A DNA stretch of 64,000 nt from Candidatus Equimonas faecalis (lineage in GTDB: Bacteria; Bacteroidota; Bacteroidia; Bacteroidales; Bacteroidaceae). The stretch spans positions 1 through 64,000 of the forward strand of contig JAGHRT010000024.1 of the NCBI GenBank assembly GCA_018066245.1. The letters run 5' to 3'. Below the pieces are notes generated by a model, which was not told the DNA's origin, made no database searches, and worked only from the letters and a program-made list of their open reading frames with translations. Shown one piece after another: positions 15,320 to 59,166 of this stretch; the stretch's first letter is position 1, and each line of letters begins with the position of its first letter. The position numbers and the translations under genes were made by a program.

Positions 15320-18300
15320 ATGCGAAACCTCCGCTTATTTCTATTCTCTCTGGTCGCACTGATAGGACTCGGTGTCCACGCACAGGGAGAACCCGTACTC
15401 AAAGGTGCGCTCTATCAGATTTACATCGGCCAGAAAGTCATCGGTGCCGACCAGAACGGTCAGGTGTGCTTGAAGGCCCCCGATGCCGAAGACCCTACGC
15501 AGCACTGGCAGTTCAACGGTTTGTCGGGCTCCTACCGCATCGTGTGTCCCTTCACCGGCAAGGCTATCCGTACCAACGGCACAACGCTGGAACTCGGTGA
15601 GTACAATGGCTCCGACGAGGACCAGTTGTGGAAACTGGGCACAGACGCTCCCCGCCTTATCCCCGCAAACCACCCTGACAAGTGCTTTGCCGGCAAAAAA
15701 GGCAAGTTCGTGATGATAAGCGCGAAGCAGAGCGAGACGGATCAGAACGCCTGGCTGGTTATCCCGCAGGCCAAGCGGGCCGGTTTCGATGTAGAGATGA
15801 CTTATCAGTTCCACCCCTACACGCAGCCCCGCCTCGTGCTTGGCAACAAGGACGACGGTGCTGACGGCGTGGGCATCGTGGCCGAAGAGCGCGACGTAGA
15901 TAACCGCGGCCAGTACTGGCAAGTGAAGATGCTGGACTTCAAGCAGCGCGTCGTGAGCGGTGCCTTCTATACGGCGGCCTTCGATGACGGCGGCGACAAC
16001 AAGAAGATAGACTACCTCCTGCAATGGGGTCCCTCACCCACCTACGCCAACAATAAGTTTGAGTTCGCACCCGTGGACCAGGGCTGGCAGGCCGTGGGCG
16101 AGGGTGAGGACTTGCACTACACCAATGTGTTTGCCCTCGTCAGCGTGAACCGCCAGAAGATGATGGTGCTGCGCGACGGCAAGTTGATGCAGGAGCCTAT
16201 TGACCTCACTGACAAGGCCGCGTGGTTTTATGCCGACGCCGTGGCGAAACCCAAGATAACCGCGCCCATCTGGGAGGACGAGACCGTGTTCGGCATCAAC
16301 AAGCTGCCGGGGCACGCCACCCTTATCCCCTATGCTTCCGAGCAGGAGATGCTGGCCGACAAGGCTTATTACGATACCCCGTGGACCGAGCCCCAGAGCA
16401 GCCTCTACCAGAGCCTGAACGGCGAGTGGAAATTCCGCCTCGTGAGTGAGCCGAGCCAGCGTCCCGAACTCTCCGGCCTCTCTCTGGCCGACGTGGCCGA
16501 CTGGGACGAAATCCCCGTGCCCTCCAACTGGGAGATGCAGGGCTACGACCATCCTATCTATTGCAATGTGGAATATCCCCACGCCAATACGCCGCCCTTC
16601 ATCAAGGCCCGCCCCGGCTTCAACGACGGCGGCGCGAACTACGGCATCAACCCCGTGGGCTCCTATATGCGCACCTTCACCGTGCCCGAGGCCTGGCGTG
16701 AGGAGGGCCGAATGACCATCCTCCACTTCGGCGGCATCTACTCCGCCGCCAATGTGTGGGTGAACGGCCAGTATGTGGGCTACACGCAGGGTGCCAACAA
16801 CGACCACGAGTTTGACATCGCCCCCTACCTGAAAGCCGGCGAGAACACGCTGGCCGTGCAGGTGTTCCGCTGGAGCGACGGCTCGTATTTCGAGTGTCAG
16901 GATATGTTCCGTATGAGCGGCATCTACCGCGACGTATATCTCTGCAACTTGCCGAAGGGAGCCGTGTATGACCATAAGGTAAGAACCAAATTGAATAACG
17001 GAAGGGCTGTCGTCGTCGTTGATCTTTACGACCGCGAAGGCAAGGCTACCGGCGCCGAACTCTCCCTCTACGATCCCCAGGGGCAGTTGGTAGCGAAGTC
17101 TGGTGCCAGCAGTTGCCATCCGGGCGTGGGCTCTCCTGCGTTAGTATTGAGCAATCCCCAACTCTGGAGCGCCGAGCAGCCCAACCTCTACACCCTCCGC
17201 GTGGTGCAGGACGGCATGGCTTTCTCCACCAAGGTGGGCATCCGCGAGGTGAAGATAGAGGGCACCAAGTTGCTGGTGAATGGTAAGCGCGTGTTCTTGA
17301 AAGGCGCCAACCGCCACGACACCGACCCCGAACGCGGCCGTGCCGTCACCAACGAGACGATGCTGCGCGACGTCATACTGATGAAGCAGAACAACCTCAA
17401 CACCATACGCACCTCCCACTATCCCAATGCCGCACGGATGTACGCCATGTTCGACTACTACGGCCTCTATACCGTCTGCGAGGCCGACGTGGAGGACCAC
17501 GCCAACCAGAGCCTGTCCAGTATTCCCAGCTGGCAGCCTATGATGGTGGATCGTATCAACCGTATGGTGCTGCGCGACCGCAACCATCCCTCTGTCATTA
17601 TGTGGAGCCTCGGCAACGAGTGTGGTAACGGCGACAACTTTGAGGCCTGTTTTGACGAGGCCAAGCGTCTCGACAATACGCGCCCCGTCCATTACGAAGG
17701 AACGCGCATCAACCGCCCCTATGGCGGTAGCCGCTTCTCTGATTTCTATTCCAAGATGTACCCCGGTCAGGACTGGATGCAGCAGAACACCTCCGGCCTC
17801 GAAAAGCCTATGTTCCTCTGCGAGTATGCCCACGCCATGGGTAATGCCGTCGGCAACCTCGCCGAATACTGGGATGTTATTGAGAATAGCCCTGACTGCA
17901 TAGGCGGTTGCATCTGGGACTGGGTGGATCAGGCCATCTACGACCCGCACGAGATGAAGCAGGGCATCAAGCGCCTTCACACCGGCTACGACTATCCCGG
18001 CCCGCACCAGGACAACTTCTGCAGCAACGGCATCCTGCCCGCCGAGCGCACCGAGAGCGCCAAGTTGAAGGAAGTGAAGCAGGCATACGCCTATGTGAAG
18101 CTCTCCCTGCTTAAGGATAGTGAAAATTATCCCGCCGACAGGAAAAATTCTTCTGCCGATAAGAAAACCTATCCTGCCGATAGTTTCAATGGGAATATAG
18201 TCCAGGTGCAAGTGGCCAACGCCTACGCCTTCGACAACCTCCGCGACTATGACTTCGTGGCCGAACTCGTGAAGGACGGAAAGGTCCTCGGCCAGAGCAA

Positions 18301-19348
18301 GCAGGCCCTTCCCTCCGTGGCTCCCGGTGAGTCGCAGACGGTCAGCGTGAAGTTGCCGAAGAAGGTCGTACAGAAGGTCGGAAAGGGGTCGGAGTATCTC
18401 CTCACCCTCCGTGTGCAGCGCCGCGAAGCCACCCGCTGGGCCGAGGCCCATCACGAGGTGGCCGTGAAGCAGTTTGCCCTCACGCCCCGCGTCGGCCTTC
18501 CCGAAGTGAAAGCCAAAGGAACAAGTTGGGCAAAAGTACCCCATACGCTGGCCATGCTACCCAGCGAAACCTTCCGCAATGAGAACGTCAGCATCAGTAT
18601 TGACAATACAACGGGCGTGCTTACCAGTCTCAAACTCGCGGGCCGCGAACTTCTCACCGGCGGCTTCGGCTTTGATTACACCAACCACCGTTGGATAGAG
18701 AACGACCGCTTCACAAAGACGGAGAATGGCATGGACAAGGAGGCCGTCATCGAGCATACCGTTGATGCTGCCGGCAACCTCGTCATCCACTCCCACCGTG
18801 GCGGCAAACTCTGCCAGCTTGATGTGGAATACACCGTTTATCCGCAAGGCATCGTGGATGCCGAACTCACCTTCACACCCCATACCAACGACCTGCGCCG
18901 CGCCGGTGTCATTTGCGGAATAGACAGCACGCTCAACAATGTGCGCTACTATGCCCTCGGCCCTTGGGAGAACGGCGTGGATCGCCACGACGGACAGGTG
19001 GCCCAGTGGTGGACTTCCTCCGTGGAAGGTCTCGCAGAACACTACATTAAACCCCAGACCACCGGCGAGCGCACCGAACTGCGCGACCTCATCCTCACCG
19101 ACAAAGCAGGCCGCGGCGTGCGCATCCAGACGGAGGGCAACGTAAGTTTCTCCCTCAACCGCAACACCGATGAGCAGTTGATGAAAGCCCGCCACCAGTG
19201 GGAACTCCAGCCGCTGGACTATAACGTCCTCCACCTCGATGCCTGGCATCGAGGCATTGGCAACGCCTCCTGCGGCCCCGGCACTCTGGAAAAATACTAC
19301 GTGCCCAACCGCCCCATGACCTTCAAACTTCGCATCAGTAAAATCTAA
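15320..19348 (+). CDS. GH2 beta-galactosidase (LacZ type) with N-terminal lectin-like extension
   Basis: A 1342-residue secreted GH2 enzyme. After the signal peptide, residues ~25-300 form a beta-trefoil-like extension ([37 protein letters not shown]), followed by the canonical LacZ order. It has a sugar-binding domain ([17 protein letters not shown]), an Ig-like domain, and a TIM barrel with acid/base Glu767 ([10 protein letters not shown]) and nucleophile Glu835 ([10 protein letters not shown]). The small-chain beta-sandwich at the C-terminus ([13 protein letters not shown]) is also present. It is longer than E. coli LacZ because of the N-terminal addition. Residues 935-955 are three 7-residue repeats encoded by an inserted 21-bp array (separate entry). 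This is the last gene of the glycan cluster. Confidence 0.93.
18125..18187 (+). repeat. In-frame 21-bp repeat array inside the GH2 gene (3 units)
   Basis: Units at 18125-18145, 18146-18166 and 18167-18187 encode [14 protein letters not shown] and TYPADSF. The shared core (C/T)(C/T)TGCCGATA or CCCGCCGACA plus an A/T-rich linker is the same as in intergenic arrays at 35.7, 52.6, 54.3 and 59.1 kb. It falls between LSLLKDSE and [13 protein letters not shown], a linker before the next beta-domain, where extra residues should be tolerated. Confidence 0.8.
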
Positions 19349-19393
19349 TCTTTTCAATAAGAGCCACGCTTGGCTCCCTCCCCTAAAAAAGAA

Positions 19394-59001: not shown

Positions 59002-59019
59002 AGGGCTTGTTTCGCGTGT

Positions 59020-59166
59020 TCTTGGGAGATGTTTTCTGGCTCTTGGGAGATGTTTTCTGGCTCTTGGATGAGCGTGCTTGCTGGCGTATAGGGGAGTTTG
59101 AATTAGTCCGCCGATGGGAGAAATTAGTCCGCCGGGAGTTTTTCCTTGTCTATAGGACTGTTGTAT
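59020..59166. repeat. 21/22-bp repeat array, about seven units
   Basis: TCTTGGGAGATGTTTTCTGG units at 59020 and 59041 are perfect 21-bp copies; a third, partial, begins at 59062. They run in phase into TGGCGTATAGGGGAG (59082), TAGTCCGCCGATGG (59104), TAGTCCGCCGGGAG (59125) and TTGTCTATAGGAC (59146). Three unit flavours share one phase in one array. Confidence 0.82.

Follow-up and report, generated by a model that had tools for sequence, protein, structure and literature searches.

The stretch analysed here, called the window below, comprises the first 64,000 nucleotides of contig JAGHRT010000024.1 from Candidatus Equimonas faecalis (Bacteroidales), whose assembly is a draft of 62 contigs, 89.84% complete. 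Among its genes are those for a LacZ-like enzyme of family GH2, a sulfatase, DnaA and a TamB-family protein, and dispersed between and within its genes lie short arrays with units of 21 or 22 bp. An earlier note on this DNA had listed 13 such arrays, and the list held up well. Ten of them are recognised by Tandem Repeats Finder (TRF), at a period of 21, 22 or 43. The array listed at 40099, a degenerate chain of 22-bp units, escapes the program, while those at 52640 and 54335 are built of 15-bp modules and 6-bp spacers and were not called because their modules alternate in orientation. The individual arrays are collected in Table 1.

Table 1. Arrays of 21- and 22-bp units in the window
Feature	Positions	Strand	Setting	Basis
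CCGCC-type, 21-bp units	18123..18183	+	in frame in LacZ-like GH2 gene (15320-19348), between TIM-barrel and LacZ_4 domains	TRF, translation, Pfam
Third-type 21-bp array GGCGGCTTACGGGAAAAAAAT	21993..22045	+	intergenic	TRF, sequence
CTATAC-type, 22-bp units	27868..27994	+		TRF 27880-27972, chain 27962-27994, sequence
CTATAC-type, 22-bp units	31691..31775	+	3' of sulfatase gene	TRF, chain, Pfam
Compound: one CTATAC-type unit, then 43-bp units with GCCGCA-TGCGGC inset, then CCGCC-type 21-bp units	35637..35796	+		TRF (periods 43, 21), sequence
CTATAC-type, 22-bp units	38445..38523	-	upstream of dnaA	TRF, chain; dnaA by Pfam
CTATAC-type, 22-bp units, degenerate	40097..40266	+	3' of dnaA, between convergent genes	chains; missed by TRF
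CTATAC-type, CTATACACTAG form, 22-bp units	45418..45516	-		TRF, chain, pattern scan
CCGCC-type, 21-bp units	51142..51196	+	in frame on opposite strand in TamB-family gene	TRF, translation, Pfam, G009 comparison
Four 15-bp modules, alternating orientation, 6-bp spacers	52643..52726	.		sequence; CCGCC core at 52690
Near copy of 52643 array, same 15+6 layout	54338..54421	.		sequence; CCGCC core at 54385
CTATAC-type, 22-bp units	57106..57194	+	same-family 22-bp array at matching place in G071	TRF; G071 L180:5937-6005
21-bp array of another type TCTTGGGAGATGTTTTCTGGC	59020..59067	+		TRF
Mixed: CTATAC-type module, then CCGCC-type modules in register	59080..59138	+		chain, sequence

The arrays are genuine, dispersed over the genome and locked in their spacing. 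We took as our own-genome sample 464 kb of the 2.59 Mb, namely the window and stretches L005 to L024 (contigs C15, C37, C38 and C39); these four contigs were already known to contain pattern matches when sampled, so that densities in the sample may be high. Periods 21, 22 and 42-44 accounted for 23, 30 and 15 TRF rows in this sample; the next commonest period, 69, had nine rows, all within genes. Over the own genome, a paired pattern for the first array type (CTATANRGTAG-N11-CTATANRGTAG, at most two mismatches) matched 237 times, against 0 for the reversed pattern used as control, and a CCGCCGAYAG pair matched 225 times against 2, counts far in excess of chance.

Two families of module underlie these counts. 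The first has the form CTANN-CTATAC-NNTAG (16 bp) and the second CTANN-CCGCC-GAYAG (15 bp); joined by a 6-bp spacer, they give periods of 22 and 21. When exact cores were measured without TRF, all 18 pairs of CTATAC-type cores lying at most 70 bp apart on the same strand were 22, 44 or 66 bp apart, and all 32 such pairs of CCGCC-type cores were 21, 42 or 63 bp apart; with one mismatch allowed, 56 of 61 CCGCC pairs lay at these distances. Of 121 neighbouring modules within 40 bp, again with one mismatch allowed, 108 were separated by exactly 6 bp (CTATAC, 49/50; CCGCC in the same orientation, 33/37; inverted CCGCC, 8/11; mixed-family, 18/23), and eight of the 13 other neighbours were 26-28 bp apart, as when one module is skipped. 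The reversed-sequence control gave a 6-bp gap in only 1 of 9. Because the gap holds across mixed and inverted pairs, modules differing in sequence and orientation substitute for each other in register. The spacers are variable (30 distinct ones among 49 CTATAC pairs) and A/T-rich, GAAAAA being the commonest. Within TRF arrays, modules were better conserved than spacers in all 12 species-type sets, a comparison that is partly circular as module boundaries were picked by eye.

The cores of the listed arrays had been described as different. Most of them are in fact related, since the two interchangeable families, CTATAC and CCGCC, cover most of the list; difference in the stricter sense is seen in the further types GGCGGCTTACGGG (21993) and TCTTGGGAGATG (59020). 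The alternating array at 52643 reads CTATCCGGCTGGTAG / ATGAAA / CTATCAGCCGGATAA / TTCTAA / CTACTCCGCCGATAG / AAAAAA / TTAGTCGGCGGATGG, with 15+6 bp throughout. This array and its near-identical counterpart (52643-52726 and 54338-54421) adjoin two genes without Pfam match (52792-53961 and 54475-55608). Arrays of 42/43 bp that join a CCGCC-type module to a GCCGCA-TGCGGC inset occur in the window (35655-35749) and at L012:2200-2504, L022:16298-16392 and L023:17500-17638; they are probably two units in register.

Other repeats were seen in the window as well. An 85-bp tandem repeat (45156-45346, 2.2 copies, 93% matches) directly precedes the 45418 array, and a degenerate 8-bp repeat, ATTAGCGA, runs for 9.2 copies (63664-63737) close to the window end, both by TRF. 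A dispersed repeat at 20953-21040, 21151-21187 and 21556-21588 has matches of 33-89 bp several times in stretches L177 and L178 of G009, the nearest relative found. The dnaA gene (38719-40074) has CTATAC-type arrays on either side, and the cumulative GC skew rises after about 42 kb; the replication origin may be nearby.

Placement relative to genes was read from calls made with a home-made hexamer script. In our sample, 33 merged CTATAC-type arrays comprised 19 in gaps between same-direction genes, six in convergent and six in divergent gaps, one in coding sequence and one at an edge. Merged CCGCC-type arrays numbered 29, a few of which may be chance because their cores were allowed up to two mismatches: 13 were coding, 12 lay in same-direction gaps, three in convergent gaps and one at an edge. 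Among the 31 same-direction arrays, 23 had the upstream stop closer to them than the downstream start (median distances 65 and 131 bp). The statement that most arrays lie 3' of a gene thus stands as a tendency, but it does not hold for the six CTATAC-type arrays between divergent genes or the 13 CCGCC-type chains inside predicted genes, and the listed arrays 18125 and 51139 are themselves both intragenic. Between same-direction genes, 10 of the 12 CCGCC-type arrays were oriented opposite to the genes and two with them, a bias that is uncertain since gene prediction may have taken in part of the sense arrays. Of the 13 arrays inside genes, 11 were oriented with the gene and two against it, which fits stop codons in the other frames.

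The proximity to upstream stops and the prevailing orientation of intergenic CCGCC-type arrays, uncertain as the latter is, would suit arrays that act as RNA or single-strand hairpins, for instance in 3' untranslated regions, and the modules do resemble 5-bp stems with 5-6-nt loops. The arms of the modules tell otherwise. Left and right arms draw on much the same set of five-letter words, and in the 33 CTATAC-type and 29 CCGCC-type arrays no covariation beyond shuffling was found between arm pairs (z from -0.6 to 1.5); at the centre of the CTATAC type the pair is in fact anti-complementary (z -2.9). This lack of covariation argues against a hairpin and fits double-stranded sites with independent half-sites. 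With six CTATAC-type arrays between divergent genes, and the window free of Rfam matches at gathering score (and of tRNAs), we consider hairpins an improbable explanation. Dyad symmetry in the modules is common, but not the rule. The mean best stem of 127 arrays from all species was 4.36 against 3.49 after shuffling; in the own genome it was just 3.72 against 3.35, with p<0.05 in 7% of 43 arrays, and in G078 and G018 the best stems fell below their shuffles. A universal rule of dyad symmetry was dropped on account of these weak cases.

Arrays inside genes bear on a different alternative. Arrays with 21-bp units do sit in frame within genes, those with 22-bp units scarcely ever: of the TRF rows, 10 of 23 with period 21 were coding (seven of them CCGCC-type), as against 1 of 30 with period 22. 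One common sense-strand reading frame was used by 31 of 38 in-gene CCGCC units, giving peptides such as YPADREN. Pfam identified six host genes (GH2/LacZ, TamB in two genes, Pterin_bind, RsmB/F and DUF5683), and the arrays occupy loops or linkers between domains. The repeat in folP (L013) falls within an excess of about 35 residues (5 x 7) over typical relatives; it was absent from all 31 relatives read, which were 29 congeners, out of 51 that had a match, and two named genomes, the better of these two matches being 'Prevotellaceae bacterium UBA4301' at 48% (L091). The LacZ-like gene is longer across its array by 17-25 residues, and by exactly 20 in 12 cases, than 20 of the 21 congeners whose best match spans the region in one piece, the other congeners aligning in pieces. 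In G071 the gap falls at the array position, and G009 is 5 residues shorter with other sequence there. Such in-frame arrays in the folP, LacZ-like and RsmF-like genes look more like insertions than useful sites.

These lengthened genes, together with the choice of linkers and loops, favour an explanation by satellite-like copying, in which units of fixed length, without function, are made and spread by replication, by recombination or by some mobile process, and new variants replace old ones throughout the genome. The spacers point the same way: those of one array resemble each other more than those of different arrays do (identity 0.67 vs 0.42 and 0.64 vs 0.38), so that local copying also shapes the arrays. 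Copying has difficulty, however, with the register kept by mixed and inverted modules, which simple tandem duplication does not give, and with the recurrence of one unit length in other sequences. The array at 51142 in the TamB-like gene adds no extra length relative to the G009 ortholog and was therefore not produced by plain insertion.

Comparison with other species separates sequence from spacing. In nearly all congeners, including G009, our genome's own motifs are at control level. Scans of 36 congeners and of 24 further genomes from the order gave no CTATANRGTAG pair, and the own 22-bp pattern had no exact match in named genomes, a scan that may leave out the window's own genome. Any match to the CCGCC pair was seen in 20 of 58 genomes; it is frequent only in the own genome (225), G025 (37) and G020 (25), where forms such as CAATC-CCGCC-GATTG are included, and the remainder have 0-3 control-like matches. 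A CTATACACTA pair occurred in five of 58 genomes: the own genome (97), G071 (85), G031 (5, of another make), G032 (1) and G081 (1). The CTATAC-family 22-bp array of G071 matching our 57106-57194 is one case of kept position. G009, with 68-95% identity to the own DNA over aligned stretches, has none of the three own pairs and shows its own 21-bp array at L177:5106-5209. The absence of the own motifs from so near a relative also speaks for copying.

The period, by contrast, recurs. We sampled 21 genomes of the genus, the congener stretches coming from contigs known from folP homologue matches or chosen by guess. The top distance between intergenic 8-mer repeats was 21 or 22 bp in nine of the 13 samples of at least 80 kb (own, G014, G036, G064, G061, G019, G018 with 15 counts, G078 and G074); G032 peaked at 42, and G080, with a noisy baseline, at 23 with 21-bp arrays beside. 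Among eight smaller samples the peak was 21 in G026, G010 (noisy baseline) and G021 (weak), and elsewhere in five. The motifs differ from species to species, as with TTACAAAGTTTGTAA (G036), ATCCATCCCATGGAT (G014), ATTGCATAATGCAAT (G026), CAAACCATTGTTTG (G080), CCTTAGCCCCGT (G074) and CAATGCTTCC (G078), among others. In nine congeners with other modules, module and prevailing gap sum to 21 or 22 bp, from 5/5 (G078) and 9/9 (G010) down to 15/21 (G074). The proposal that spacing is kept rather than sequence is therefore well supported, by the 6-bp gap across module types and orientations and by the 21/22-bp period of other sequences in the genus. Broad variation in period, which the earlier note had set against its own idea, is contradicted in most samples; exceptions are G004 (peak 33) and G081 (peak 16), both larger samples, and the smaller G033, which also lacks a 21/22 peak. 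G080 has in addition a 23-bp array of 22.9 copies, TCTTGTACTCCTATAAGGACTCC, at L116:5045-5564. On a poorly resolved folP tree of 31 rows, array-rich and array-poor species were scattered (6 changes; mean after shuffling, 6.4).

Outside the genus other distances led. E. coli K-12, sampled over 50 kb, had its top distance at 57, and the count at 21 was 7 (mean 3.1). Small samples from 20 genomes of other families of the order (0.4-20 kb each, two without readable bases) were led by 16 and 23, and the count at 21 was 50 (mean 21.2); G059 had one 22-bp row and G057 one weak 21-bp row. G054, of another family, has two 23-bp arrays of one motif (L167:8231-8298 and 9647-9736), from which it follows that similar systems with another period may exist.

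The congeners also bear on intrinsic curvature. Phased A-tracts, such as the A/T-rich spacers of our genome would provide at intervals of about two turns, could make the arrays curved DNA. Units of the same period in some congeners lack A-tracts in their spacers, as in G074 or in G080 with its CTCCCAC spacer, and curvature is accordingly a very unlikely explanation.

A mobile element of the miniature inverted-repeat transposable element (MITE) kind, or one of repetitive extragenic palindromic (REP) sequences with their REP-associated tyrosine transposases (RAYT), was also considered. The P. gingivalis repeat BrickBuilt is a minisatellite inside a MITE (PMC4596501), and the own genome has three RAYT-like gene matches. 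Yet of 5886 pairs of flanks from 55 arrays just 6 were similar, five of which were CCGCC or 42/43-bp units; the random intergenic control gave 42 similar pairs, having itself caught array units. Y1_Tnp, present in 9 of 19 genomes, did not track the arrays: it occurs in the array-poor G004, G081 and G021, and was not found in the array-bearing G061, G026, G010, G074, G078, G020 and G025, some of these genomes being incomplete. At the four Y1_Tnp loci read (L173, L174, L175 and L176), the tandem repeats nearby were others, mostly longer, of period 10 to 414 bp. Both a MITE with shared flanks and a RAYT partner were rejected, and of all explanations weighed here a mobile element of these kinds seems the most remote. 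A phage origin was likewise discarded. Viral stretches with a pair match numbered 14 and 4, with one match each, by eye coding repeats or other palindromes, and the G036 motif had 0 matches in viral contigs.

The explanation that we tentatively prefer, at somewhat less than even confidence, is that the arrays are clustered, phased sites for a multimeric, sequence-specific DNA-binding protein. Successive sites, 21 or 22 bp or two helical turns apart, would be bound by such a multimer on one face of the DNA. The modules would be what the protein reads; its specificity may have shifted between species and the arrays with it, and the units may have spread via local duplication and insertion. Since the register is kept across sequences, orientations and species, a factor reading sites two turns apart would best explain it. 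Several results weigh against this. The uneven orientation of intergenic CCGCC-type arrays is one, as simple binding sites would not need orientation. Others are the insertion-like arrays within genes, the likeness of spacers within arrays, the congeners G004, G081 and G033 without a 21/22-bp peak, and the weak stems of the own genome, G078 and G018. No protein partner was found for the arrays, and because none was identified we infer, rather than observe, both one-face protein sites and fixed-length copying.

Fixed-length copying is nearly as likely as phased protein sites, and both may be true together. A broader account, possible although decidedly provisional, is that of a satellite-DNA system: across this Bacteroidales genus a fast-evolving trans-acting factor, either a DNA-binding protein or a recombinase, would maintain many phased two-turn arrays per genome, the species dialect being replaced as the spacing stays constant. 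Constant spacing with differing sequence across one genus is the opposite of what we would expect of bacterial repeats, in which sequence is shared and length varies. The arrays point to satellite-like turnover in bacteria, and to a protein of the chromosome or a copying process whose length is built in. As the species have their own motifs, the partner could be sought by binding assays or as a gene evolving with the motif.

Several known systems resemble the arrays in part. Iterons are direct repeats about two helical turns apart at plasmid origins, read by a multimeric protein. Their typical fixed two-turn spacing is seen here in core distances, module gaps and congener gaps; the arrays differ in being dispersed over the chromosome and in that their protein reader is putative. 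The DNA uptake sequence dialects of Neisseriaceae are species-specific dispersed 10-12-mers, single or inverted, often near gene ends and in some cases intragenic. They share with our arrays a species-specific dispersed motif near or inside genes, whereas the arrays are phased. REP sequences and bacterial interspersed mosaic elements with RAYT transposases are short dispersed intergenic palindromes; here direct or inverted modules are phased at 21/22 bp, and a link to RAYT was not found. Rickettsia palindromic elements, longer single insertions tolerated in frame inside genes, resemble our in-frame repeats, which differ in forming phased 21-bp arrays.

Apart from papers on P. gingivalis, narrow queries with thin coverage of subscription journals brought up nothing on 21/22-bp arrays in this group. 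Two of those papers describe intergenic tandem repeats, namely the 23-nt BrickBuilt and the 41-nt 464/PgRS, with a 22-nt repeat mentioned for strain W83 (PMC4596501, PMC5771137). BrickBuilt, the nearest published case, is one 23-nt repeat without spacers, with a leader and a tail that have inverted-repeat ends, at 19 loci in ATCC 33277, and no matches outside P. gingivalis are reported there (PMC4596501). Both it and our arrays are species-specific intergenic minisatellites in Bacteroidales. The differences are several. The period there is 23 nt, and here 21 and 22. Our arrays consist of interchangeable 15/16-bp modules with variable 6-bp spacers, and in place of a leader and tail with terminal inverted repeats the flank comparison above revealed no shared flanks. 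More than 200 pair matches were present in the own genome for each of two patterns, and the same period is found with other sequences in other species of the genus.

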